Assembly (NCBI RefSeq): GCF_947500255.1
Contig: NZ_CANMRL010000003.1
Span: 310,001 to 374,000, forward strand
DNA: 64,000 nt
Reading direction: 5' to 3'
Source: an uncultured Psychroserpens sp.
Lineage (GTDB): Bacteria; Bacteroidota; Bacteroidia; Flavobacteriales; Flavobacteriaceae
The notes under the pieces: model-generated
Told to the model about the DNA's origin: nothing
Database searches by the model: none
What the model saw: only the letters and a program-made list of their open reading frames with translations
Program-made: the position numbers and the translations under genes
Part shown: piece by piece, positions 36,439 to 52,440 of the stretch
How positions within the stretch are numbered: the stretch's first letter is position 1
Layout of the letters: the number at the start of each line of letters is the position of its first letter

Positions 36439-36918
36439 ATGAAAGCTGTTTCTGTAGTAACAATACGAAAAGAACTCAAGCACAAATCCAATGAAGAATT
36501 AGCCGAGCTGTGTTTGCGTTTGTCACGCTTTAAAAAAGAGAATAAGGAGCTCCTCACCTATTTGTTATTTGAAGCCGATAGTGAAGCTGGTTATATTGAC
36601 ACCGTTAAAGCTGAAATAGATGAGCAATTTGAACTCATCAATACTGACAGTTATTTCTACATTAAAAAAAGTGTTCGTAAGATCTTACGTAATACCAAAA
36701 AGTACATTAGGTATTCGCTTAATAAGGAAACCGAAGTAGAGCTCCTCCTCTATTTTTGTAAGACACTAAAAACCATGCGACCTTCGATAAAACGCAATAC
36801 AACCTTAACCAATATTTATGAGCGTAATATAGAAGCGATAAAGAAAAAGATTGTCAATCTACATGAAGACCTACAATACGACTATAGGATTGTATTAGAG
36901 GAGATAGAAGATTTGTAA
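36439..36918 (+). CDS. Conserved helical protein of unknown function
   Basis: A 159-residue, strongly alpha-helical, charged cytoplasmic protein (TIRKELKHKSNEELAELCLRLSRFKKENKELLTYLLFEA; KKSVRKILRNTKKYIRYSLNKETEVELLLYFCKTLKTM). I recognise it only as a common Bacteroidota hypothetical. It is the last gene before the cassette-like array. Confidence 0.6.
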   Translation: MKAVSVVTIRKELKHKSNEELAELCLRLSRFKKENKELLTYLLFEADSEAGYIDTVKAEIDEQFELINTDSYFYIKKSVRKILRNTKKYIRYSLNKETEVELLLYFCKTLKTMRPSIKRNTTLTNIYERNIEAIKKKIVNLHEDLQYDYRIVLEEIEDL

Positions 36919-36926
36919 TGAGGAAC

Positions 36927-36992
36927 AAAAGGTCACGTTTACGGGAGTATAGACCCCAAAAACGCGTATATTTATCTCCATATAACTAGTTA
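36927..36992 (+). repeat. Degenerate element at the left edge of the cassette array
   Basis: The stretch ends in CCATATAACTAGTTAGCTGC; the GTTAGCTGC (36989-36997) is the opening boundary of cassette unit A. It includes the ATATAACTAGTTA motif also seen at 1098-1110. The rest (AGTATAGACCCCAAAAACGCGTATATTT) differs from the other elements and may be a second subtype. Confidence 0.5.
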
Positions 36993-38347
36993 GCTGCAAT
37001 ATGACAAAATGAACAATAGAGAGTCGTTATTAAACTTCATTTTAAGTGTCGTCAAAATTTCAAAAGATGATGCTCACCAAATTGCAAACACATTTCATTC
37101 TATTGAAATAAAGGAAAAAGACTATTTACTTAGAGAAAAGGAAGTAAGTGATGATTACTTCTACTTGGAAAGTGGATTAATGCGGACTTTTCTCTACAAC
37201 TTGGAAGGTGAAGAAATTACGATTGATTTCTTTACAGAAGACAACATTGTATTTGAGATTACTTCATTCTTTAATCGAATTCATTCAGAAGCATATATTC
37301 AGGCTATCACAAAATGTAAAGGATTTAGAATTTCATACGAAGAATTAAATACTCTATTTCATAATAAACCTGCATTCAGAGATTTTGGAAGAGCCATTTT
37401 GGTAAAAAAATTTATTGCTTCTCAAAACAGAAATTATGGGATGATAAATCGAACAGCAAAAGAGAGATATCAGAACCTTTTGAGCACAAAACCCCAAATA
37501 CTACAATATGCACCATTAAAGTACGTTGCTTCTTATTTAGGTGTTACTGATAGCACTTTGAGTAGGTTGCGAAAAAAAATGTAAATTTTTATTTCTTGCC
37601 TTTTGTCAAGTAGATATAAATTTCACTTACTGAACTTTGCATTAAAGTTTAATAAATATGGGCGAAATTTCTACTTCAATTGTAATATTTTTCATTTTCA
37701 CAACCATACTTACTTTGTTTTGTTTTTATCAAACCAATAAAAGTAAGAAGCAACTTTTAAGTATCTCCATTTGGATGGTTGTAGTCGGAATCTTGGGATA
37801 TTTAGGGTTTTACCAAATTCAAAATACTATACCACCAAGATTTGTTTTTCTCTTGGTTCCTAGCATCCTTTTCGTTATTATCCATTTTTTCCTTACAAGA
37901 AACAATACTATTAGCAATGAACAGAATTTAAAATGGTTGACTTTATTACATACGATAAGAGTTCCTGTTGAAATAGTATTGTACTATGTTTTCATAGCAG
38001 GATTAATACCTGATTTAATGACTTTTGAGGGCTATAACTATGATATTCTATGTGGTATTTCAGCACCAATAATTTACTATACTGTGTTTGTCAAAAAATG
38101 GATTGGAAAAAAGGGACTTCTAATATGGAATTTCATTTGTTTAGGATTGTTAGTTAATATTTTGACTATAGCTATTTTGAGTGCTCAAACCCCAATTCAG
38201 CAATTAGCATTTGACCAACCCAATATTGGTGTAACTTACTTTCCTTTTGTTTGGCTACCAGCAGTAATTGTACCTATTGTTCTTTATTCGCATTTAGTGA
38301 GTATAAAAATATTGCTGGAATTTAGAAATAATAATACTGCAGCTAAC
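36989..38347 (+). mobile_element. Cassette-like unit A (two genes)
   Basis: Opens with GTTAGCTGCAATATG (36989) and closes with AATACTGCAGCTAAC (38347). The closing sequence is the reverse complement of the opening one at 13 of 15 positions, with the nine inner bases perfect. The same relation defines integron gene cassettes. Content: Crp-like regulator and multi-span membrane protein. Mobility is inferred. Confidence 0.6.
37009..37584 (+). CDS. Crp/Fnr-family regulator
   Basis: A 191-residue protein with an N-terminal cyclic-nucleotide-binding fold (IEIKEKDYLLREKEVSDDYFYLESGLMRTFLYNLEGEEITIDFFTEDNIVFE) and a short C-terminal HTH (LKYVASYLGVTDSTLSRLRKKM). It matches the flavobacterial Crp/Fnr subgroup in which the effector is unknown. 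The start codon lies 17 bases after the cassette boundary at 36992. It is the first gene of unit A and may control the membrane-protein gene downstream. Confidence 0.85.
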   Translation: MNNRESLLNFILSVVKISKDDAHQIANTFHSIEIKEKDYLLREKEVSDDYFYLESGLMRTFLYNLEGEEITIDFFTEDNIVFEITSFFNRIHSEAYIQAITKCKGFRISYEELNTLFHNKPAFRDFGRAILVKKFIASQNRNYGMINRTAKERYQNLLSTKPQILQYAPLKYVASYLGVTDSTLSRLRKKM

Positions 38348-38368
38348 AACGTGTATAATCAATGCTAA
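37658..38368 (+). CDS. Multi-span membrane protein of unknown function
   Basis: A 236-residue protein with about seven membrane segments (IVIFFIFTTILTLFCFYQ, ISIWMVVVGILGYLGFY, FVFLLVPSILFVIIHFFLT, LIWNFICLGLLVNILTIAIL and others), of a type common in Bacteroidota next to Crp-like regulators. Family not recognised. The last codons (AANNVYNQC) are read from the 5' end of the following element, and the stop TAA lies inside it. Confidence 0.65.
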   Translation: MGEISTSIVIFFIFTTILTLFCFYQTNKSKKQLLSISIWMVVVGILGYLGFYQIQNTIPPRFVFLLVPSILFVIIHFFLTRNNTISNEQNLKWLTLLHTIRVPVEIVLYYVFIAGLIPDLMTFEGYNYDILCGISAPIIYYTVFVKKWIGKKGLLIWNFICLGLLVNILTIAILSAQTPIQQLAFDQPNIGVTYFPFVWLPAVIVPIVLYSHLVSIKILLEFRNNNTAANNVYNQC

Positions 38369-38468
38369 CCTTTTTATTCATAGAAAAAATACTATCTTTA
38401 ACTAACTGATTTGCTACGACTGATTATCCTGCGGATTCTCTGCCGCACAAATCATACACGAACACGTT
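38348..38468 (+). repeat. attC-like element E2
   Basis: Begins AACGTGTATAATCAATGCT and ends ATCATACACGAACACGTT, the shared termini of the array. A short inner stem ATCC-TGC-GGAT lies near 38425. It separates unit A from the TetR/hydrolase unit. The outer AACGTG pairs with CACGTT, and GTGTAT with ATACAC. Confidence 0.7.
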
Positions 38469-38496
38469 GTGAACCATTTGTCTGCCTTCGGAAAGA

Positions 38497-39105
38497 TCAC
38501 TCTAAATGGGATCTGTATTGTTTCATTCCTTCAGCTGACAAATATGGAAAAATTAAATTGTTTACATAAACTACATATTTGGTTTTTAAACCTTTATAAA
38601 AAAAATCATTAGGATTAAGGTTAATAAAGAAAAACGTTCGCATTGCACCACTTAAATCCATTAAATAATCTAAATCGTTATCGGTTAACTCGTCCCTCAA
38701 TACCCCTTGAATTTTTAATTGTTTTAAAATTTGTAAATATCTTTTTTTTCTAGAACTATTATCTTGTTCTATCATTAATGACAAATCAGAATAACTTCTC
38801 TTAATTTCAATAAAATCAACATAAAAAAATAAATATTTTATTGAGATTTCAAAAGTGATTTTTGGCGCATCTAATATGCCTATTAATAAATTATTATAAT
38901 CAAACGTATTTATAATTTCCCCAGTTTCTTTCAGCATATCTTCATATAAACAAAGAATTAATTGATTCTTTGTTTTAAAGTGATATGTAACATTACCATA
39001 ACTAATTGAAAGTTCTTTAGCAACCTCTCTTAAAGTAACATTTTTAAAGCCTTTACTATTAAAAAGCTCTCTTGATGTATTTTTAATCTTGTCTTTAGTT
39101 TTCAT
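38497..39105 (-). CDS. TetR-family regulator
   Basis: A 202-residue protein with a TetR N-terminal HTH (TKDKIKNTSRELFNSKGFKNVTLREVAKELSISYGNVTYHFKTKNQLI) and a helical ligand-binding part. It is divergent from the alpha/beta hydrolase gene, with 71 bases between them, and probably represses both; a 13-base palindrome lies in the gap. It is one of only three minus-strand genes in the array. Confidence 0.85.
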   Translation of the reverse strand: MKTKDKIKNTSRELFNSKGFKNVTLREVAKELSISYGNVTYHFKTKNQLILCLYEDMLKETGEIINTFDYNNLLIGILDAPKITFEISIKYLFFYVDFIEIKRSYSDLSLMIEQDNSSRKKRYLQILKQLKIQGVLRDELTDNDLDYLMDLSGAMRTFFFINLNPNDFFYKGLKTKYVVYVNNLIFPYLSAEGMKQYRSHLE

Positions 39106-39114
39106 TATTTTACA

Positions 39115-39127
39115 AAATAGGCTATTT
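39115..39127. promoter_or_regulatory. Palindrome AAATAG-G-CTATTT, candidate TetR operator
   Basis: A perfect 13-base palindrome in the divergent gap between the TetR gene and the hydrolase gene. A candidate hydrolase -7 box TACCTTTG lies at 39152-39159, and TTG at 39126-39128 overlaps the palindrome (spacer 23, longer than usual). Operator role is inferred from position. Confidence 0.45.
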
Positions 39128-39176
39128 GGACTAATTTTAATATATTTTAAATACCTTTGTATTAAATTATATTAAT

Positions 39177-40040
39177 ATGGCATCAATATACAAGAATAGT
39201 AAAGCAAAAACAGATTTAATGGATCTGTACGATGAAAAATTAAAAGCTTTACAAATAGATTATACAAACATAGATGTTAACACAAAATTTGGAAAAACTA
39301 GAATTGTCAAAACAGGAAAGACTAATGGTAAAAAAATTGTAATATTTCACGGTTACAATGCTGGTGCACCAATTACATTAGAAGCTATTAAAGATATATT
39401 AGATAAGTATTGTTTTTATGTTATTGAAACAATAGGACAAGCTACTAAAAGTGAAGAAACAATAATCAATATTAAAGATGACTCTTTTGCGCTTTGGGCG
39501 AATGAGGTATTGGAAAAATTAGAAATACAAAAAGTAAATGTAATTGGTATATCTTATGGAGCATTTATAGTTGAAAAACTTATGGTCTACAATCCAGAAC
39601 GTATTGATAAATGTGTTTTGGTAGTACCAAGCGGTATTGTAAATGGAAATATTTGGGAATCTACAAAAAAACTGACTTTTCCATTAATCAGATGGAATAT
39701 CACTAAAAAGGAAAAACATTTAAAATCCTTTTTAAGTGCATTTGCTCATATTGAAGATGAGTTTTTATATAAAATGTTGAGTTTAATAATGAAAGGTGTA
39801 AAATTAGATACAAGAATACCTAAATTATTAAAATCTAAAGAAGTTGAAAATTTTACAGCTCCTGTATATGTGATTGCTGCTAAAGATGATGTCTATTTTC
39901 CTGGAGAAAAAATTGCTGCAAGAAGTAAAGAATTGTTTTTAAATTTAAAAGAAGTTCATCTTTTAGAAAACTCAAAACATATGCCCTCTAAAAATACATA
40001 CCCAATTATTCAACAAAAGTTAATGGAATGGATTAACTAA
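39177..40040 (+). CDS. Alpha/beta hydrolase
   Basis: A 287-residue cytoplasmic protein with the alpha/beta hydrolase fold: VIFHGYNAGAPITLEAI, nucleophile elbow VIGISYGAFIVEKLM (Ser in GxSxG), Asp in VIAAKDDVYFPGEKI and His in LENSKHMPSKNTYPII. The triad looks complete. Substrate unknown. It is divergent from a TetR gene that probably controls it. Confidence 0.85.
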   Translation: MASIYKNSKAKTDLMDLYDEKLKALQIDYTNIDVNTKFGKTRIVKTGKTNGKKIVIFHGYNAGAPITLEAIKDILDKYCFYVIETIGQATKSEETIINIKDDSFALWANEVLEKLEIQKVNVIGISYGAFIVEKLMVYNPERIDKCVLVVPSGIVNGNIWESTKKLTFPLIRWNITKKEKHLKSFLSAFAHIEDEFLYKMLSLIMKGVKLDTRIPKLLKSKEVENFTAPVYVIAAKDDVYFPGEKIAARSKELFLNLKEVHLLENSKHMPSKNTYPIIQQKLMEWIN

Positions 40041-40076
40041 ACATATTGAATTGGACACATAAAATCGATTTGCAAC

Positions 40077-40283
40077 AACGTGTATAATTCATTGCTAGTC
40101 CTCACCTACTTAGAAATTCCTGCGGATTTTCCTACTGGTTAGTTTTCTTTTATTAACTTAGTTCCAACCAACGCTACAACTATTAAAGCTAGTAGATTTT
40201 TGTTTGGCATTTAAGTAAAATGACATTAACAAAAACGAACTAGGGAAAGTAATTACTAAAGATAAACCATACACGAACACGTT
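40077..40283 (+). repeat. attC-like element E3 (long, hybrid form)
   Basis: Starts AACGTGTATAATTCATTGCTAG and ends AACCATACACGAACACGTT, but at 207 bases it is the longest copy. The middle has the usual TTCCTGCGGATTTTCC stem and TATTAACTTAG core, then a second 3' portion (GAACTAGGGAAAGTAATTACTAAAGATAAACC) like that in the elements at 42184 and 47518. It looks like two element types joined. No gene in the 257-base gap. Confidence 0.7.
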
Positions 40284-41328
40284 AAGTGCAATAAAACATG
40301 AAACAAATCATTATTTTCATATTGACTTTAGCATCCCTAAATTGTTTCTCTCAAAATTCGCTAAGTGATACAATAAGTATTGTTAATGATTTTAATAATG
40401 ATAATATTTCTGATTCATTAACGATTTATACTTTTAGAAAAACAACAAAATCAATAAAAGTTTATAATAGTTTAACGAAACAATCCTTCACTATTGGTGG
40501 TAGAGGCAGCTATAATTGGTCTAAAGCAAACTTTCTTGAAATCATACCACTGCCAGAAGAACTTGTAATTCCGGCAAATGAAATTTTACTAGATACTATT
40601 ATTCAATACCTATTGCCTAATTTCTCAGAACCCGACCCTTCATTAGATTGGTTAATTGCTGGATACCAAAATAAAGTTATTGATACAACAGATAATCTTT
40701 TTTCTATGACTTTAACCTGTCCCATTTCTAAACACGATACTTTTAGTTATCCTGAAGCATCATTCAAGATAATTTCTAAAGATACCTTACCTGTTTTTTG
40801 GGATAGAGTTTGTAGTGAAAACTACATTAAGTATAAACACGGAATTCTTGTCTATTATGGGCAAAATCATCGCTCAAGAGACTTTGAGTTTCAAACTGAT
40901 ACAATATCAAATAATTATGAAATATTTTCTACTTCTCACGGAATACTTGCTAAGAAAGAGCAAAAATATTCTTGGCTATTTATTACCGACGGTACCTTGA
41001 CAGGAGGTCCAGAAAAATTGAGATGGAAATCAATAATTAAAATCAAGTATTTTAATAATCACATCATACTACATCAGGTTAGTGGCATAGGAAATTATAA
41101 TAAAATTTTTATTATTAACCCTGAAAATGGAAAAATTGGTCTGCTTAGAATTGAAGATGAATACTTTTGCTTTAACTCGCCTAAATGTTTTGACTTTGAG
41201 GTTAAAGAGTCTAAACTTATAATTAATTCAAGGAGAACTCAAGAGTGTTACTATGATAAAGGAGATATTGAAACATTATCATTTGACATGAAACTAATAA
41301 TAGAGAAATTAAAATAACAACACTTAAC
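40281..41328 (+). mobile_element. Cassette-like unit B (one gene)
   Basis: Opens GTTAAGTG and closes CACTTAAC, an exact 8-base reverse complement, with a single gene between. The gene starts 17 bases after the opening G and ends 11 bases before the closing C. Confidence 0.6.
40298..41317 (+). CDS. Exported protein of unknown function (cassette gene)
   Basis: A 339-residue protein with signal peptide MKQIIIFILTLASLNCFSQ. An early segment DTISIVNDFNNDNISDSLTIYTF resembles an FG-GAP/EF-hand-like Asp/Asn-rich loop. The rest is beta-rich (KYSWLFITDGTLTGGPEKLRWKS) with no family I can name. It is the only gene of unit B. Confidence 0.55.
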   Translation: MKQIIIFILTLASLNCFSQNSLSDTISIVNDFNNDNISDSLTIYTFRKTTKSIKVYNSLTKQSFTIGGRGSYNWSKANFLEIIPLPEELVIPANEILLDTIIQYLLPNFSEPDPSLDWLIAGYQNKVIDTTDNLFSMTLTCPISKHDTFSYPEASFKIISKDTLPVFWDRVCSENYIKYKHGILVYYGQNHRSRDFEFQTDTISNNYEIFSTSHGILAKKEQKYSWLFITDGTLTGGPEKLRWKSIIKIKYFNNHIILHQVSGIGNYNKIFIINPENGKIGLLRIEDEYFCFNSPKCFDFEVKESKLIINSRRTQECYYDKGDIETLSFDMKLIIEKLK

Positions 41329-41451
41329 AACCTATATAATTAATTACTTGTTCTCGTCTACTTACGAAAATCCTACAGATTTTCCTCTGGTTCGTTTTCT
41401 TTTGCTAATTTAGTTGCTAGCCAACGTAACGAAACCATACACGTATACGTT
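41329..41451 (+). repeat. attC-like element E4
   Basis: Begins AACCTATATAATTAATTACTTG and ends AACCATACACGTATACGTT. Internal blocks: inner stem AAAATC-CTACA-GATTTT, then CCTCTGGTTCGTTTTCTTTTGCTAATTTAG, then GCTAGCCAACGTAACG. The following boundary is GTTGTGTGTC. The 239-base gap before 41557 holds only this and about 100 bases without a feature. Confidence 0.7.
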
Positions 41452-42183: not shown

Positions 42184-42238
42184 GTAAAAACGACCTAGGT
42201 AAAATAATCACCGAAGGTAAACCATTCACAAACACGTT
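42184..42238 (+). repeat. attC-like element E5, 3' half only
   Basis: AAAAACGACCTAGGTAAAATAATCACCGAAGGTAAACC then ATTCACAAACACGTT. It lacks the AACGTGTATA opening. The same 3' half occurs in E11 (47518) and inside E3. The boundary GTTGGCAATAA opens unit C. Confidence 0.6.
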
Positions 42239-42277
42239 GGCAATAATTTCACAGAATTGGCGCCAAATCAAGTACAG

Positions 42278-42814
42278 ATGAATATTAAAACCATAAGAGA
42301 GAAAAAACATTTAACTCAAGAAGAACTTGCTGAACAATCTGGGCTTTCTATACGAACCATACAACGTATAGAAGCTGGTCAAAAGCCAAAAGGACATACA
42401 GCAAAAGTACTTGCTAAAACCCTTGGTTTAGATTTGTCTTCTTTAAACAAACCAGAAAAACTAACAGAGACTGTTAATTATTCACTGGTTAAACGCATAA
42501 ATCTCTCTACTGCATTTGTCTGCTTCATTCCATTGTTGAACATCATTTTACCATTAGCTCTAACCTATCATTACAAACAAAACAATAACTTAACAAAAGG
42601 CATTGTTACCCTACAAATTTTATGGAGTATTGTTTCTACTTTAATATTCTTCATCTCAGGATTTCTCAAATTAACCTTTGATTTGCATCATCAAACGACA
42701 CTTTGGGTCGCCATTATTTTGATAGTAATAAACCTTGTAATGATACTTATCAATTCGGCAAATATTGATAAGCATAAAGAGCTGTACTTCAAGTTAAGAT
42801 ACAACCTTATCTAA
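42278..42814 (+). CDS. XRE-family HTH protein with membrane domain (DUF4870-like)
   Basis: The ATG at 42278 (MNIKTIREKKHLTQEELAEQSGLS) is preferred to the TTG at 42257 given in the track; 178 residues. The first 60 residues are an XRE helix-turn-helix. The rest has three to four membrane spans (FVCFIPLLNIILPLALTYHYK, LWSIVSTLIFFISGFL, LWVAIILIVINLVMILI), so it is a membrane-tethered regulator. A paralogue lies at 59568. In unit C it precedes a serine hydrolase gene. Confidence 0.8.
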   Translation: MNIKTIREKKHLTQEELAEQSGLSIRTIQRIEAGQKPKGHTAKVLAKTLGLDLSSLNKPEKLTETVNYSLVKRINLSTAFVCFIPLLNIILPLALTYHYKQNNNLTKGIVTLQILWSIVSTLIFFISGFLKLTFDLHHQTTLWVAIILIVINLVMILINSANIDKHKELYFKLRYNLI

Positions 42815-42926
42815 CTGTTTTTTAATGACTTACTACTACTGTCGTGTTATTGTCAGGAGATTGACGGGATAGTTCTCTAGATATAACTTTTGTCTTTTTA
42901 GAATTTTGCCTAAAATAATTTAGACA

Positions 42927-44381
42927 ATGAAACTAACACAAATTTTTACTATCCTCTTCTTCATTTCAATAAGTAGTATTGCAATTACTCAAAATCAGAA
43001 TCAATCATCAACACTTTATTCTAGAATAGACAATTATTTGGAGTCTGCAGTTAAGAACGGGTTTACAGGAGCTATAACCGTTATAAAAAATGAAAGCATT
43101 GTTATTAATAAAGGATATGGGATAGCCAACAAAAATACCCAAACACAAAATAATCCTAATACTATTTTTGATATTGGTTCAAATACAAAACAGTTTACGG
43201 CAACAGCTATTTTAAAGTTGATTGAAATGGGTAAAATAAATGAAAACAACCCATTATCACTGTTTTTCAAAAACCTTCCAGTAGATAAGCAAAATATCAC
43301 TATTCACCAGTTATTAACTCATACATCTGGCTTTGTTGATACCATAGGAAATGATTTTGACGAAATCACTTCAAAACAATTTTTCGACACCCTTTTTGCA
43401 AGTAAATTACTGTTTAGTCCTGGAGAAAAGTATGAATATTCTAATGTAGGCTATAGTGTCTTAGGTAAGATTATCGAATTAGCTTCTGGACTTGAATATG
43501 AAGTCTTTTTATCCCAGAACTTGTTTATTCCAGCAGGAATGAAACAAACGGGCTACTTATTACCAAAATGGAATACTAAAGAAATCTCACGAAGTTACAA
43601 TCGGGGAATTCTAGAAAGTGAATCACCTATTTTAAAGTATAAAAAAAATGGTACTATTAGTTGGCATTTAAAAGCTAATGGAGGCATTAATTCTACACAA
43701 AATGATATGATTCTCTGGTACAATGCCCTAAAATCTAATACAATTATATCAATAGAGTCGTTTGAAAAAATGACTACAGCTTATGCCGATTATCCCAACG
43801 GCACATTAAGCTACGGCTATGGTTGGACAATAAGGTTTCTAGAGGGTGATGTTAAACGAATAGCTCATAATGGGTCTAATGGTGCATATTCACACTCGTT
43901 AATTTGGTTCCCAAAAAAGGATATCTATATTGTCTATGCTACAAATGCAAATAGTGAAAAGGTAGAATATATTGCATATGCAATTGCAAAAATGTTATTG
44001 GATGAGACTTATATTCCAAAACCAGTTGAGAACAATGTTTATGCCTATGCGGTTAACTATATGGTAAAAAACGATATTAGCAAAACAGAAGAACTCATTA
44101 CTTTACTAAAAGAAAAATATCCTGACAATTTTACAAGTTCCAGGCTTTTAAATTCAATTGGAAATATTTTATTAATGATTGATAAACATAAAGATTGGGT
44201 TATAGCATTGTTTAAAAAAAATGTTCAACTTTATCCTAATGACGGAAACCTATGGGATTCTTTGGGTGATGGTTATAAAGCAAATAACCAAAAAGAAGAT
44301 GCTATAAAAAGTTATCAAAAAGCTATTGAATTAGGATACGAAGGTTCTCAAAAAAAAATAAATGAACTAATAAAGAACTAA
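42927..44381 (+). CDS. Exported serine hydrolase (beta-lactamase fold) with C-terminal TPR
   Basis: A 484-residue protein with a signal peptide (MKLTQIFTILFFISISSIAIT). Class C beta-lactamase/PBP motifs are SNTKQF (SxxK), YEYSNVGYSVLG (YxN) and RIAHNGSNGAYS (the third motif). The last 100 residues contain a TPR pair ending in GDGYKANNQKEDAIKSYQKAIELGY. Domain order is that of flavobacterial serine hydrolases of unknown substrate. Second gene of unit C. Confidence 0.88.
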   Translation: MKLTQIFTILFFISISSIAITQNQNQSSTLYSRIDNYLESAVKNGFTGAITVIKNESIVINKGYGIANKNTQTQNNPNTIFDIGSNTKQFTATAILKLIEMGKINENNPLSLFFKNLPVDKQNITIHQLLTHTSGFVDTIGNDFDEITSKQFFDTLFASKLLFSPGEKYEYSNVGYSVLGKIIELASGLEYEVFLSQNLFIPAGMKQTGYLLPKWNTKEISRSYNRGILESESPILKYKKNGTISWHLKANGGINSTQNDMILWYNALKSNTIISIESFEKMTTAYADYPNGTLSYGYGWTIRFLEGDVKRIAHNGSNGAYSHSLIWFPKKDIYIVYATNANSEKVEYIAYAIAKMLLDETYIPKPVENNVYAYAVNYMVKNDISKTEELITLLKEKYPDNFTSSRLLNSIGNILLMIDKHKDWVIALFKKNVQLYPNDGNLWDSLGDGYKANNQKEDAIKSYQKAIELGYEGSQKKINELIKN

Positions 44382-44394
44382 AACTATTACCAAC

Positions 44395-44542
44395 AACTCG
44401 TATAGTTAATGGCTTATTTTGTGTTTACTCGAACACGAGCGTAACGAACTGGCGCTAGCAAAATCCTACGGATACTCCTCTGGTTCGTTTTCTTTTACTA
44501 ATTTAGTGCTAACCAACACAAAAAGCCATACACAAACACGTT
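44395..44542 (+). repeat. attC-like element E6
   Basis: Begins AACTCGTATAGTTAATGGCTTA and ends AGCCATACACAAACACGTT. Internal: CGAACACGAGCGTAACGAACTGGCGCTAGC, inner stem ATCC-TAC-GGAT, and CTCTGGTTCGTTTTCTTTTACTAATTTAG. One of the fullest copies (148 bases). Confidence 0.72.
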
Positions 44543-45074
44543 AGCTACAAGCGAAGAAAAAAATGAGCGAAAATCAAAATCCGAAAAAATTTTTACTAAT
44601 CAAGCTGATTCTTTTGGTTGTTCTGATTTGGGGACTGTCTGCAGTCTTGATTATAGTATTTCTATCTGAATGGTCTGATAGAGGAACTTTTGGAGATCTA
44701 TTTGGAGCTGTAAACGCTTTATTTTCCGCTCTTGCATTTGCTGTTTTAATTTATACAATAGTCCTTCAACGAGAAGAAATAAAACAAAATCGTGAAGAAA
44801 TTGTTTTGAATAGGAAAGAACTTGAAAAAAGCGGAAAATTACAACGGAAAGCTCAAGAAGTCTTAATACGTCAGGTAGAACAAACCCAATTGAGTGCTAA
44901 AATGAATGCTATGAGAACTCTTGTTGATTATTATAACAACCAGATATCCAATCCAAAAAGCACGGAAGAAATTGTAGAAAAAGCAAAGCAAAAAAGAAAA
45001 CAAATCATTTTACAAATTGACCAATTGATTGACGGATTAAATGACTCTGATGTGGAATAAAACCAGCAACTAAC
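44540..45074 (+). mobile_element. Cassette-like unit D (one gene)
   Basis: Opens GTTAGCTAC and closes GCAACTAAC, which pair at 7 of 9 positions. One gene inside. Confidence 0.45.
44563..45060 (+). CDS. Membrane protein with two TM segments and coiled coil (cassette gene)
   Basis: A 165-residue protein. Two membrane spans (KLILLVVLIWGLSAVLIIVFL; LFGAVNALFSALAFAVLIYTIVL) are followed by a long charged coiled coil (REEIKQNREEIVLNRKELEKSGKLQRKAQEVLIRQVEQ). The plan is common for small proteins found beside defence or cassette genes in Bacteroidota, function unknown. Confidence 0.65.
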   Translation: MSENQNPKKFLLIKLILLVVLIWGLSAVLIIVFLSEWSDRGTFGDLFGAVNALFSALAFAVLIYTIVLQREEIKQNREEIVLNRKELEKSGKLQRKAQEVLIRQVEQTQLSAKMNAMRTLVDYYNNQISNPKSTEEIVEKAKQKRKQIILQIDQLIDGLNDSDVE

Positions 45075-45195
45075 TACGTGTATAGTTCATTGCTAGTACT
45101 TGCCTACATAAGAAAATCCTCACGGAGTTTCTTTTCGGTTTGTATTTGCTAAATTAGTTACTTAAAACATGTAACAAACCATATATAAATACGTT
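45075..45195 (+). repeat. attC-like element E7
   Basis: Begins TACGTGTATAGTTCATTGCTAG and ends AACCATATATAAATACGTT. Internal: AAAATCC-TCAC-GGAGTTT stem and TATTTGCTAAATTAGTTACTTA core. The next start codon (45199) comes only three bases after the GTT, so the whole leader of gene 45199 is element DNA. Confidence 0.7.
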
Positions 45196-45198
45196 GTT

Positions 45199-45552
45199 AT
45201 GAATATTCTAAAAATCATTACTGCTATATGCAGTCTGCTTTTTTTCATGGTTGGATTCGATAAGTTTATTCCATTTATAGAACCACCTTGCTCTTTGATA
45301 GATAATATCTCTGCAACTCTTTGGAAAGTGCTTGGAACCTTACAAATAGCAGCTGGTATTCTTATTTGGTTTTCTAAGCTAAGAAGATATGTAGCAGGAT
45401 TCTTAGTAATTATTTTATTATTCTTTACAATTTATCATCTCAAAGAGAACACTTACGACATTGGTGGTTCTACTTTTATGGCAGTTTTGTTAGGAATATT
45501 AGTATGGAATCCAGCGTTTTTACAAGGAAAAAAAGGAATAGACTTTGAATGA
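45199..45552 (+). CDS. DoxX-like small membrane protein (cassette gene)
   Basis: A 117-residue protein with four membrane segments (ILKIITAICSLLFFMVGFDKFIPF, LWKVLGTLQIAAGILIWF, YVAGFLVIILLFFTIYHL, FMAVLLGILVWNPAFL), resembling the DoxX fold. The start ATG is the third codon-equivalent after the element boundary, so ribosome binding signals must lie in the element. Role unknown. Confidence 0.65.
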   Translation: MNILKIITAICSLLFFMVGFDKFIPFIEPPCSLIDNISATLWKVLGTLQIAAGILIWFSKLRRYVAGFLVIILLFFTIYHLKENTYDIGGSTFMAVLLGILVWNPAFLQGKKGIDFE

Positions 45553-45600
45553 TTGCATTTAAATTTCACAATATTAGATTGAATATAGCCAGCAACTAAC

Positions 45601-45620
45601 AACGTGTATAATTAATTATT
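45601..45620 (+). repeat. attC-like element E8, 5' end only
   Basis: CTAAC then AACGTGTATAATTAATTA, after which the minus-strand gene 45616-45882 begins directly. The 3' two thirds are missing. The stop codon of the minus-strand gene is formed by element bases. Confidence 0.55.
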
Positions 45621-45882: not shown

Positions 45883-45994
45883 AATAAAATGATTTAAATT
45901 AATACCTCTTAAAAATACAAAATATATTTAACTTATGCAACTGATTATCAGTACTATACATCTGTATTATAATTATTTAAAAACGGCACCCAAC

Positions 45995-46146
45995 AACGCG
46001 TATAGTCAATTGCTTGTTCCGTGTATATTCGAACACTAGCGTAGCGAACTGACATTAGCAAAATCCTTATCCTTCTTTTTTTTCTCTGGTTCATTTTCTA
46101 TTTACTAACTTAGTGATATCGCAACGGCATCATACACAAATACGTT
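45995..46146 (+). repeat. attC-like element E9
   Basis: Begins AACGCGTATAGTCAATTGCTTG and ends CATACACAAATACGTT. Contains CGAACACTAGCGTAGCGAACTGACATTAGC, like E6, then TTTCTCTGGTTCATTTTCTATTTACTAACTTAG. About 110 bases between gene 45882 and this element show nothing recognisable. Confidence 0.72.
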
Positions 46147-46932
46147 AGCCATAATTATTACGAATGAAAAATTACGATGAATTTTCTAATATTGAATTTG
46201 AAAAATTGTGCGAATCTCAAGACGCTTTTAAATCAGAATATGATTTGGACTCATATTCCAACTGGTTTTATGATCAAGAATCTGAGCTGTTAAGACTATA
46301 CAATAGTGATGAAGATGAAATATTCTTTAAATATGTACCAGTTGGGACTTATTCGCTGAAATCCAATACTTGGATGTGGAGCTGGGAAAATGAGCATTCA
46401 ATTGAAAAAAGTAAAAACGAAACTTTACAGGTAAAGTCATTTGGAGAAATCCATAAGTATCAAAAACTCACAAAAGGATTAATAGAATGTGATAAAGACG
46501 AGTGCTGGGAATTCGTTGCAATTGCTAAAAAATTTATAAATAGCTTGGGAGTATACTGTACTAATTCAAAGGATTTATTGACCTATAAATTGTTGACCCA
46601 TGAATATTCAGAAACAGATTCAACCGCAGTAAAAAAAATGAAACAAAGAACTGTGGATTGTGGAAATCATGGCTTTAAAAGGCCTGCTTTTGTATGTCAA
46701 CATTTAAATTTAAAAAAAGCTAATGGCTTTGAAGAATCTTTTACAACCTATAGAGGAATGGAATTGGATGAAGAAGATGATTTCGCGGCTTGGTGTAATG
46801 AATGTGAAAAAGTAAGAGTTGAAAAAGATGGTTGGAATGAAGAATCTGAAAAATTCGCAAAAATTAAATTAGTGTGTGAAGAGTGCTACTTTGAATTAAA
46901 GGAATTTAATGAAAAATAAAACTATGGCTAAC
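46144..46932 (+). mobile_element. Cassette-like unit E (one gene), clearest example
   Basis: Opens GTTAGCCATAATT (46144-46156) and closes AACTATGGCTAAC (46920-46932): reverse complements at 12 of 13 positions. The single gene starts 20 bases after the opening G and ends 13 bases before the closing C. This is the strongest single piece of evidence for a circular intermediate. Confidence 0.65.
46164..46919 (+). CDS. DUF6882-like protein with C-terminal cysteine-rich segment (cassette gene)
   Basis: A 251-residue cytoplasmic protein. Residues 1-140 (VGTYSLKSNTWMWSWENEHSIE; FGEIHKYQKLTKGLIECDKDECWEFVAIAKKFINSLGVYCTNSKD) match the DUF6882 pattern. The C-terminal 100 residues have paired cysteines and histidines (VDCGNHGFKRPAFVCQHL, CNECEKVR, LVCEECYFEL) that could bind zinc. 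Domain function unknown; such proteins are common in cassette and immunity neighbourhoods. Confidence 0.6.
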   Translation: MKNYDEFSNIEFEKLCESQDAFKSEYDLDSYSNWFYDQESELLRLYNSDEDEIFFKYVPVGTYSLKSNTWMWSWENEHSIEKSKNETLQVKSFGEIHKYQKLTKGLIECDKDECWEFVAIAKKFINSLGVYCTNSKDLLTYKLLTHEYSETDSTAVKKMKQRTVDCGNHGFKRPAFVCQHLNLKKANGFEESFTTYRGMELDEEDDFAAWCNECEKVRVEKDGWNEESEKFAKIKLVCEECYFELKEFNEK

Positions 46933-46988
46933 AACGTGTATAATTAATTGCTCCTGAATTTCCTCAACTAATCATACACAAATACGTT
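46933..46988 (+). repeat. attC-like element E10, shortest full copy (56 bases)
   Basis: AACGTGTATAATTAATTGCT ... CTAATCATACACAAATACGTT. GTGTATAATTA pairs with TAATCATACAC at 10 of 11 positions, and AAC with the final GTT, leaving AAATAC unpaired on the 3' side. This minimal copy shows which parts are essential: the two termini, not the central core. Confidence 0.75.
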
Positions 46989-47517
46989 GGTATTAATTAA
47001 ATTAAAAGTCATGAAAAAATTAGCTTTTACACTTTGTATGTTGTTTTCCATTTGGAGCTGTGATTCAAATAAAACTGAATTAACAATCGATCATAGTTCA
47101 GACTTAAAAAAAATAAATAAAACTATTAAGGATTGGGATATTGCCTGGGAAACCAAGGATTTGAATTTAGCCATTAAACATTATACAGATGAAACAGATT
47201 GGACTAATGCATTTGGAGCAAGGGTTCAATCTAAGGAAAAATTGAAAGATTTACTTAATAGAATTTTCAACATGGATTTTGTTATGTCTGGTGAAAATAA
47301 TTATGGAGAAAACGAAATTACCTTTGTAAATGATAGTATTGCAACAGTAAGGTCTCAAAACATAAGGAAAAATCAAAAGTGGCCTGATGGGTCTATAATG
47401 GAAGACAGAATAATTAATCATTTACGAGTATATCAAAAGTTAAATGATAATTGGTTCATTACTGATCATATGATAAGCCAAGCTTGGCCTAGAGAATCAA
47501 ATTAACGAAACACCAAT
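46986..47517 (+). mobile_element. Cassette-like unit F (one gene)
   Basis: Opens GTTGGT and closes ACCAAT; six pairs including one G-T. One lipoprotein gene inside. Confidence 0.45.
47011..47505 (+). CDS. Lipoprotein with SnoaL/NTF2-like domain (cassette gene)
   Basis: The ATG at 47011 (MKKLAFTLCMLFSIWSCDSN) is preferred over 46987 because it gives a lipoprotein signal; 164 residues. The mature part reads as a DUF4440/SnoaL-like fold: LKKINKTIKDWDIAWETKDLNLAIKHYTDETDWTNAFGARVQSKEKLKDLL, ending in NHLRVYQKLNDNWFITDHM. These domains may be isomerases or just ligand binders. Confidence 0.72.
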   Translation: MKKLAFTLCMLFSIWSCDSNKTELTIDHSSDLKKINKTIKDWDIAWETKDLNLAIKHYTDETDWTNAFGARVQSKEKLKDLLNRIFNMDFVMSGENNYGENEITFVNDSIATVRSQNIRKNQKWPDGSIMEDRIINHLRVYQKLNDNWFITDHMISQAWPRESN

Positions 47518-47593
47518 AACGTGTATATCCAATCGCTGGTTTTGTGTGCATTAGGAATATAATCACCGAAACTAAACCATACTCGAACACGTT
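47518..47593 (+). repeat. attC-like element E11 (short, second subtype)
   Basis: Begins AACGTGTATATCCAATCGCTGG and ends AACCATACTCGAACACGTT, with ATATAATCACCGAAACTAAACC in the middle. It joins a standard 5' end to the 3' portion found in E5 and E3. Confidence 0.7.
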
Positions 47594-50397: not shown

Positions 50398-50670
50398 ATG
50401 ATTGAAGTATTCATTACAAATGTTAAAACCCAAATTCAAGTAGAAAAAGTGTCAAAAAAGATTGGGGAAAGATTTCCAGATTTGAATATTGATTTTGATA
50501 TGGATGAAACTAATTTGCCTTATCCAATAGGACATACAGTATTGCGAATAGAAGGAGAAAGTTTTGATCCAAACAAAATTATATTGATAGCCATAAAATT
50601 AAAACTCCTATGTGAAATCATGGAAGATAGTATATCGATAAAAACTACACACAACAAGGTGTGTAATTAA
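50398..50670 (+). CDS. Small HMA-like protein without CxxC
   Basis: A 90-residue protein whose layout (MIEVFITNVKTQIQVEKVSKKIGERFPDLNIDFDMDE ... LRIEGESFDPNKIILIAIKLKLLCEIME) is like small ferredoxin-fold/HMA-like proteins common in Bacteroidota; the metal-binding CxxC is absent. It follows the flavoprotein gene after 10 bases and probably belongs to the same operon. The last codons (VCN, TAA) lie in the following element. Confidence 0.6.
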   Translation: MIEVFITNVKTQIQVEKVSKKIGERFPDLNIDFDMDETNLPYPIGHTVLRIEGESFDPNKIILIAIKLKLLCEIMEDSISIKTTHNKVCN

Positions 50671-50773
50671 TAGTGTTTAATGAAGATTCGGGGAATTCTG
50701 GCAAATTTCCGCACTCTTCGTTCTTTTTTACTAACTTAATGCTTCAACACTACTAATCATACAAAAACACGTC
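50656..50773 (+). repeat. attC-like element E13
   Basis: Begins AAGGTGTGTAATTAATAGTG and ends AATCATACAAAAACACGTC. Middle: GGGGAATTCTGGCAAATTTCC hairpin and CTCTTCGTTCTTTTTTACTAACTTA, a subtype shared with the degenerate copy at 1523. The next boundary is GTCTTACTAC. Confidence 0.65.
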
Positions 50774-50845
50774 TTACTACATTTTCGAAAACGGTATAAT
50801 TCTTGATAAATTCTACAATATTTTAATTATACAAAACAAAGCCAG

Positions 50846-51409
50846 ATGAAAAGAATTTTACTCACTTTAACTTTTTGCGGACTAACTTTAATCGCAAAAT
50901 CACAAAATGCAAGTGTCGAACAATCAACATATGGGATACAAACTGGATTTTTAGGAATTTGGGCTCATAACGAAACGAAATTATCAAATTCAATTGCATT
51001 ACGTTCTGAAATTGGTTTAGACAGCGGAATTTGGGGAGGTGATTTCTATGACGGAACGGGATTTTTAATGACACCTGTAATTACTCTCGAACCTAGGCTA
51101 TATTATAATTTGAATAAAAGAGTTAACAAATCAAGGAGAATTGATGGAAACAGCGGGAATTTCATTTCATTAAAAACAAGTTATCATCCAGATTGGTTTG
51201 TGATTTCAAATACTGATAATGTTAATGTAATAAGTGATATTTCTATAATTCCCACTTGGGGAATAAGAAGAAATATTGGAAAACATTTCACCTATGAAAC
51301 TGGAATTGGAATTGGGTACAGATATATCTTTGCAAAACAAGCCGGATTTCTTGAAAATGAAAGTGAAACAACTGTGAACCTACATTTGCGAATTGGATAT
51401 CGATTTTAA
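50846..51409 (+). CDS. Outer-membrane beta-barrel protein (cassette gene)
   Basis: A 187-residue protein with signal peptide MKRILLTLTFCGLTLIAKSQ. The mature part has about eight amphipathic strands (NSIALRSEIGLDSGIWGG; VITLEPRLYYNLNKR; SIIPTWGIRRNIGKHFTYETGIGIGYRYIF) and ends VNLHLRIGYRF, the terminal aromatic typical of outer-membrane barrels. Likely an eight-strand barrel of unknown role. Confidence 0.75.
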   Translation: MKRILLTLTFCGLTLIAKSQNASVEQSTYGIQTGFLGIWAHNETKLSNSIALRSEIGLDSGIWGGDFYDGTGFLMTPVITLEPRLYYNLNKRVNKSRRIDGNSGNFISLKTSYHPDWFVISNTDNVNVISDISIIPTWGIRRNIGKHFTYETGIGIGYRYIFAKQAGFLENESETTVNLHLRIGYRF

Positions 51410-51816
51410 CGAAAATACGTTTACTATAAAAATGCAGAATCTAACATTGTATCTAACTCATTGCTTAGTATGCTTTTACTCAGTTACATCGACTGCCATT
51501 GTATAAAAGCAATTAAAATCAGGATATTTCCTACTAAATAGAAAAATAGTATTTTTGTTATTGTATTCAACATATAACATTTTGAGAAACACTCTTAAAT
51601 TTATATTAGCTTAAAATTAACCTTAGAAACCACAGGTTAATAACTTTTTTATTCGAGTAATCTTCTACTCGAATCGGTTTTCCATTTAATTATTCTTTGT
51701 CGTCTTGCTATAAAAAGCAATCACGCATACTTTTTGGTTTTGACAATTCAATTTCGAAAAAGCAATGATTAAATGGTCTATAAAATCAAAAAAAATGTTA
51801 GGCAGATTTATAAATT
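51410..51816. other. 407-base gap with a degenerate element and no gene
   Basis: The left part (51441-51490) is a degenerate element start, CTAACATTGTATCTAACTCATTGCTTAG. The right end (51797-51803) is GTTAGGC, a plausible unit boundary just before the GTG start of gene 51817. The sequence between is AT-rich, without an ORF of note, and includes TAATCTTCTACTCGAATCGG near 51660, which I cannot assign. Confidence 0.45.
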
Positions 51817-52440
51817 GTGAGAAACGAATATACCTGGGAAATAAAAGCGACAAGCACTCCCCTATTAATAAAAAAATGCAGTCATTGTCATAATGATAGA
51901 TTTTATTGCAGCGAAAAATTTAGATTAAATGCTCAAAAGAAAAATATAGATGTATGGTTGATTTACAGATGTAAAAAATGTGATAATACAATTAATATGA
52001 CAATATTTTCTAGAATCAAAACAAGTTCAATAAATAAAAAGTTACACAAACAACTTTCTGAAAACCAGATCCAAGCAGCTTGGAAATATGCATTTTCTTA
52101 TGACATAAAACAAAAAAATAATATAGAACTAGATTTTAAAAGTGTTGAATATAAAATACTCCACGATAACATAACCTTGGAGAATATATTAAGTTCAGAC
52201 ATCGAAATCATCACTTTTAAGATTAAATATCCTTTTGATTTTAATCTTAAACTATCATCCGTTATTCGGGCTTGTTTAAACATATCATCAAAACAATTGG
52301 AAAGATTAATTGAGTTGGAAGTCATTTCAATTCAAGAAAAATATTTACAGAAAAAACATAAAGTAAAAAATGAAAGTATTATAAAAATAGAAGTAAGAAA
52401 ACTGAAACATAATATGGAATCTAAAAAACTAAATAATTAA
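51817..52440 (+). CDS. DUF1062 domain protein (cassette gene)
   Basis: A 207-residue protein with a GTG start. The DUF1062 pattern is clear: IKKCSHCHNDRFYCSEKFRLNAQKKNIDVWLIYRCKKCDNTINMTIFSR, where CSHC and CKKC form a likely zinc ribbon. The rest is helical with DFNLKLSSVIRACLNISSKQLERLIELEVISI, like an S4-type RNA-binding segment. Function of the family unknown. The GTTAGGC boundary lies 14 bases upstream. Confidence 0.78.
   Translation: MRNEYTWEIKATSTPLLIKKCSHCHNDRFYCSEKFRLNAQKKNIDVWLIYRCKKCDNTINMTIFSRIKTSSINKKLHKQLSENQIQAAWKYAFSYDIKQKNNIELDFKSVEYKILHDNITLENILSSDIEIITFKIKYPFDFNLKLSSVIRACLNISSKQLERLIELEVISIQEKYLQKKHKVKNESIIKIEVRKLKHNMESKKLNN

Follow-up and report, generated by a model that had tools for sequence, protein, structure and literature searches.

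The window analyzed here (64,000 nucleotides of contig NZ_CANMRL010000003.1 from an uncultured Psychroserpens sp.) contains a tandem array of gene-bearing units separated by strongly folding elements, of which similar copies recur, and the array is headed by an attI-like module (Table 1). Remnants of site ends extend to ∼60.27 kb of the window, and a comparison with Rfam returned no match within it. The DUF6882 protein of unit E has a 53% identical relative at L038:3990-4742, within a cassette of another array in the same genome.

Table 1. Features of the array in the window (positions refer to the 64,000-nt stretch).
Feature	Positions	Strand	Remarks
attI-like module at array head (...acgcgtatatttatctccatataacta|GTT)	36911..36988 (conserved site 36957-36989)	+	promoter-like TATATTTA ∼22 nt before GTT; no integrase gene adjoining
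First cassette body: cNMP-binding-domain regulator and second ORF	36989..38347	+	ends GTTAGCTGC / GCAGCTAAC
attC-like site, 124 nt, R''-L''-L'-R' architecture	38345..38468	+	
Cassette body: TetR-family gene (- strand), alpha/beta hydrolase (+)	38466..40076	+	own ends pair weakly, 6/12
attC-like site, 210 nt	40074..40283	+	
Cassette body, ORF 40298-41317	40281..41328	+	ends GTTAAGTG / CACTTAAC
attC-like site	41326..41451	+	
Cassette body, serine beta-lactamase-fold protein 42927-44381	42236..44394	+	ends GTTGGCAATAA / CTATTACCAAC
attC-like site	44392..44542	+	
Cassette body, ORF 44563-45060	44540..45074	+	
attC-like site	45072..45195	+	
Cassette body, ORF 45199-45552	45193..45600	+	sister genome has an 85% relative, in another array
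attC-like site	45992..46146	+	
Unit E cassette body, ORF 46164-46919 (DUF6882)	46144..46932	+	ends GTTAGCCATAATT / AACTATGGCTAAC; kept in sister species, neighbors differ
Short attC-like site, 59 nt	46930..46988	+	
Cassette body, ORF 46987-47505	46986..47517	+	
attC-like site, 79 nt	47515..47593	+	
attC-like site, partly degenerate	50653..50773	+	
Cassette-like block	50771..51445	+	order with next block swapped in sister genome

The first-pass annotation of the window had claimed that the start and the end of the same unit are reverse complements, and its four examples were all located in the sequence, with complementarity at 12 of 13 positions in unit E (46144/46932), 13 of 15 in 36989/38347 (9 of 9 in the core), 8 of 8 in 40281/41328, and 9 of 11 in 42236/44394. 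The shuffle comparison that it had called for was carried out by scoring the 12 bases after GTT in 41 units, which come from six arrays in the genome. Starts matched their own ends at 6.71 of 12 positions versus 4.09 (SD 0.25) for shuffled assignments, and none of 100,000 shuffles scored as high. The match was also said to lie within a unit and not across an element, and this was borne out by the comparison of the end of each unit with the start of the next (4.52 of 12, near background). When the start of unit E was aligned with all 41 unit ends of the genome, its own end was the best partner (10 of 12), the next best scoring 9 and 8. A stricter element finder, which yielded 268 units at 33 loci, gave 6.19 of 7 for own pairs compared to 3.12 for shuffling inside each locus (z = 27.5; 0 of 20,000 shuffles) and 2.71 of 7 for pairing across elements. 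The 147 units beside close relatives of the recombinase described below scored 6.37 of 7 against a background of 3.07, and the 99 units beside ∼40%-identity relatives scored 6.25 against 3.25, with across-element values of 2.6-2.8 of 7; pairing was stronger in the relatives than in the source genome. Among the relatives, positions 4-9 were paired in 90-95% of units versus 29-54% for background. The grammar of the pairing was fixed: positions 4-10 form unit-specific pairs, position 11 is an A at the start of all units and lies opposite a C at the end of 89%, and positions 12-14 are paired again. Non-pairing units exist in the source genome (e.g., 45193/45600, 2 of 12), as would be expected where elements were missed or have decayed. 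Own-end complementarity is confirmed as real and far above chance. It is not in itself new, being already found in class 1 integron cassettes, for which we observed an own-cassette match over 11-13 bases in 4 of 7 candidate start/end pairs (e.g., GTTAGACGGCAAAG / GTTAGACGGCAAAC); the remaining three were probably paired wrongly. This control was small, being limited to seven candidate pairs from class 1 plasmids, and the IntI loci of Bacteroidota had too few adjacent cassettes.

The elements are usually 120-125 nt in length (∼123 nt) and possess an outer AAC/GTT, a spacer of 3 nt on the 5' side and 5-6 nt on the 3' side, and an inner L stem. The sequence of the L stem differs between sites (GTG, GGC, GTA, and ATA types), and both sides change together: both were changed in 136 cells versus 38 after shuffling, and 92% were paired versus 24-44% when slid. 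Even within one array, the sequences of the elements differ while pairing is kept. The circular form, containing the start of the unit itself, was more stable than the in-array form in 91% of 267 sites, and the bottom strand folded more stably than the top strand in 96%, by a mean of 4.3 kcal/mol, although the p-values of these folding comparisons are only indicative because related sequences are not independent. The greater stability of the bottom strand is explained by the non-Watson-Crick stem positions, where A·C mismatches of the top strand systematically become G·T wobbles on the bottom strand. Wobbles in the L stem numbered 577 on the bottom strand versus 14 on the top, and those in the outer arm numbered 80 versus 25, plus 233 at position 11 (a bottom-strand wobble in 233 of 267 sites). 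The elements meet the attC criterion of an R''-L''-L'-R' hairpin that is conserved in structure rather than in sequence and for which the bottom strand is favored. Two further integron criteria were not met. The canonical R boxes (RYYYAAC / GTTRRRY) are lacking, with GTTRRRY at only 16 of 267 unit starts and only GTT/AAC being kept, and extrahelical bases are missing from the bottom-strand L stem, the first 10 bp of which continued without bulge or mismatch in 200 of 267 sites. Strand choice in integrons has been attributed to extrahelical bases (PMC2727003). In one cassette of the C4 array (L038:4880-5450), the ends pair with each other (GTTAGCC/GGCTAAC) even though its site, GGCTAACAAAAGCTAAAAAATCATAGCC...GCATTTTAGCCAAACCGTT, is short and quite unlike the others.

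Conserved attI-like sequences were observed at the heads of the arrays. At the recombinase loci, such a sequence lies between the recombinase stop codon and the first cassette; it is mostly a near-perfect palindrome plus ∼6 nt in the close group, and in the ∼40% group it mostly reads ...ATATAAC(C/T)A or ...TATAAACAA immediately before GTT. The head of the window array resembles the sequence found beside the ∼40%-identity integrases. Six exact matches to ATATAACNAGTT were identified in the 4-Mb genome, all at array heads; only exact matches are informative, as those with one mismatch are mostly due to chance (55 vs 106 control matches). Array heads at seven places of the genome share a homologous module of up to ∼80 bp, and each of the six orphan heads examined has the promoter-like TATATTTA 22 nt before GTT. 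By sequence count, without activity data, TAnnTTTG, considered as part of a putative attI with Pc promoter, occurred in 10 of 28 cases compared to 1.3 expected. The gene upstream of the window head is found in 25 of 25 genomes of the genus, and the module at that place occurs only in the source genome and in a sister species (G443). Like the window array, most arrays with an attI-like head in this genome have no neighboring integrase, and we infer that one recombinase serves several attI-like platforms in trans. The window array resembles a CALIN (a cluster of attC sites without integron integrase) in having sites with no integrase nearby; however, it retains an attI-like head in common with other arrays of the genome.

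Three proteins of the genome match PF00589. Two are Xer-like (C3:190 kb and C8:22 kb), and the third, a protein of 375 aa (C4:137826-138953), is encoded at the head of an array. Its core-binding domain and its catalytic domain, in which all six catalytic residues are present, are preceded by an extra N-terminal domain of ∼100 aa; the catalytic RKHRHY set was retained in 77 of 81 non-IntI sequences. The closest sequence family is NCBIfam NF040815 (XerA, 226 bits), already titled "site-specific tyrosine recombinase/integron integrase," a hint contained in annotation names, and the top fold hit likewise belongs to XerA/Xer (PDB 4a8e and 5hxy). Xer dimer-resolution recombinases act at a single dif site in chromosome dimer resolution. 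The C4 recombinase has the same core and likewise no insertion, but it differs from those enzymes in its additional domain and its linkage to cassette arrays, and the genome encodes separate Xer proteins. The N-terminal domain had no Pfam match in its own sequence and no sequence match in PDB. A weak resemblance of this domain (L038:1827-2080) to the XPB damage-recognition and SMARCAL1 HARP domains was noted; the fold hits were below significance, a Pfam HARP match (0.001) was obtained for one of 38 members, and the resemblance is a lead only.

In many genomes, arrays were observed directly downstream of the recombinase gene, in the same direction, both in relatives of at least 52% identity and in those of ∼40% identity. 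The element search at recombinase loci detected 332 elements versus 0 in reversed sequence, and a sequence-free chain detector also found downstream arrays, with up to 20 chained units versus mostly 1-3, and at most 6, in the reversed control (the sole control available, as both strands score equally owing to the self-complementarity of GTT...AAC). Relatives in other families and classes of the phylum also adjoin arrays (L150, L152, L160, and L162-L165), although not all of them do: no array was found nearby for L151, L154, L158, L159, or the Persicobacter plasmid L119. This plasmid (CP012862) encodes a full-length 43% relative of the recombinase (L119:12001-13119). A 43% relative of the catalytic part (L118:236-1057) lies on a contig binned as Pacearchaeota, for which transfer versus mis-binning is undecided. 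Many draft contigs (L079, L082, L085, L093, and L094) stop just past the recombinase gene, which would be expected if assembly fails at repeated arrays. The assignment of the recombinase to the sites rests on linkage and association only, and the identity of the enzyme is inferred.

The system could be read as a canonical integron with a divergent IntI as recombinase and ordinary attC sites, which we consider unlikely. Such a reading would account for the same cassette logic and R/L box architecture, the own-end pairing shared with class 1 cassettes, the partial match of the recombinase to TIGR02249 (203 bits), and the presence of VchIntIA among its top fold hits. That match, however, is under the integrase_gron cut-off and skips the IntI insertion (HMM positions 194-238); the insertion is absent from the C4 recombinase, with 41 columns missing and an R-to-H spacing of 89 versus 131. 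All 14 IntI sequences form one clade (support 100) that excludes these recombinases, with the caveat that the deep branching order of the tree is uncertain and several branches are long. The rarity of GTTRRRY among the R' sequences, the unbroken L stems, and the collinearity of the recombinase gene with the array also argue against it. The IntI insertion is regarded as essential for folded-site recombination in integrons. The IntI-specific domain was treated as defining in work on archaeal integrons (PMC9668308). Because this insertion was tested for and found absent, the system falls outside the strict definition of an integron, and it likewise fails the criteria of canonical R boxes and extrahelical bases. 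In the anatomy and evolution that we tested, it does work like one, recombination itself being inferred. The two have in common one-direction tandem single-gene cassettes, the mobility of a gene with its 3' hairpin site, crossover at GTT (here inferred), the site architecture with its own-end pairing and favored bottom strand, attI-like heads with a promoter-like motif, and CALIN-like arrays without integrase. In contrast to integrons, the recombinase here stands outside IntI and has an N-terminal domain, its gene points in the direction of the array, several attI-like heads are dispersed in one genome, and strand bias is achieved by G·T wobbles.

The boundaries of the mobile unit were defined by comparison of recurring copies. 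The units have a median size of 704 nt, and the longest ORF is co-oriented with the array in 251 of 267. BLAST of unit versus unit provided 25 pairs at ≥85% identity, including units with three copies in L089 (6632, 13106, and 17793), two in L076, two in the C4 array, and three in L109. Recurring units and their downstream elements were 96-100% identical between copies, the upstream element was unrelated in most pairs, and homology started and stopped at GTT; therefore, the mobile entity is the unit with its downstream element, as in an integron. The duplicate boundaries and unit statistics meet the criterion of tandem gene cassettes in which a gene plus its 3' site is mobile. They also lend support to the first-pass proposal of integron-type circular cassettes with an R' box made from their own first bases, given that class 1 cassettes are alike and that the units break at GTT. 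A ∼712-bp cassette at L038:5432-6856 is present as an identical tandem duplicate, each copy with its own site. Comparison with G443 revealed turnover of cassettes between species. The left flank of the window array is 93.5% identical over 2.5 kb; the match includes the attI-like sequence and ends at ...CTAGTT, and the sister species carries other cassettes beyond this GTT. Only unit E is common in place over the 37-50 kb stretch of the array, and the relative of cassette 45184-45617 (85%) sits elsewhere in G443. At 50732-52436 of the window, two cassette-like blocks are in reverse order in G443.

Passive hairpins (terminators or REP-like repeats), with genes gathered by homologous recombination between repeats, would fit the strong folding and the recurrence of similar copies, but they would not lead the two ends of a unit, lying ∼700 bp apart, to match each other and not their neighbors, and they do not explain why pairing is kept among differing sequences of one array or why homology breaks at GTT, not inside the repeats. 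The earlier contention that a passive repeat would not give own-end pairing holds, as units travel with the downstream element and break exactly at GTT, and we judge this explanation highly improbable. Equally hard to sustain is the view of the units as an assortment of different transposons or pdif-type modules, in which terminal inverted repeats would likewise pair both unit ends and for which Xer proteins are present, since the downstream element is part of the mobile module, that module is not symmetrically bounded by inverted repeats, no transposase was found among the cassette genes scanned, and the sites are ∼123-nt asymmetric hairpins with strand bias, not short dif-like sites.

We conclude with high confidence that these units belong to an integron-like system as its mobile gene cassettes, inferred to be recombined by a XerA/IntI-like tyrosine recombinase, although recombination has not been shown. 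In the proposed mechanism, a cassette would consist of a unit and its downstream element. In the excised circle, the start of the unit (GTT, ∼7 specific bases, A, and ATT) would lie directly beside the element and pair with the end of that unit, thereby completing the hairpin recombination site. The bottom strand of this site is predicted to fold, with G·T wobbles where the top strand has A·C mismatches, and the C4:137.8 kb recombinase may then recombine the folded site at C^GTT with a double-stranded attI-like site at the array head. The window array would represent one of several attI-headed arrays, mostly without neighboring integrase and presumably served in trans. The circular intermediates, the single-strand recombination, the service in trans, and the role of the C4 recombinase as the enzyme are inferences; against the mechanism stand the lack of a recombination assay and of a sequenced circle, the recombinase relatives with no array nearby, and the genomes that have at least five sites but no recombinase hit, and, with the IntI insertion absent, recognition of the hairpin by the recombinase is unexplained.

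Using a covariance model of the sites (R1, E ≤ 1e-4), we identified attC-like sites in 134 of 151 sampled Flavobacteriaceae genomes, nearly all from different genera; the family members without matches mostly have small genomes. At least five sites were present in 91 of 104 genomes with a recombinase hit versus 23 of 47 without (p = 1e-6), an association for which genome size is a confounder, and the per-genome counts are lower bounds. Among the named hosts are Psychroserpens luteolus, with a recombinase of 93% identity, Flaviramulus multivorans, and Winogradskyella thalassocola. Of 297 genomes sampled across the phylum, 84 carried true IntI; a single one of these belongs to the same class, and none to the same family. 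Complete integrons were near-absent from Bacteroidetes in the RefSeq survey with IntegronFinder 2.0, which reported a single one, in Salinibacter (PMC9024848). Our literature search found no prior description of such a system; bioRxiv preprints were outside its scope, and earlier work may have been missed. On balance, we lean toward a second integron-type system that is widespread in Flavobacteriaceae and also occurs elsewhere in Bacteroidota. Its recombinase, which is I2-less and would have an N-terminal domain of damage-recognition/HARP-like type, would act on folded single-stranded cassettes, with the strand chosen by G·T wobbles and not by extrahelical bases and with several attI platforms per genome served in trans; these enzymes would represent either integron evolution at a pre-I2 stage or a separate invention. 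Confirmation would mean that an entire system of gene capture has escaped recognition. Given the prevalence of the sites across the family, Flavobacteriaceae may harbor a large, overlooked reservoir of cassette genes.
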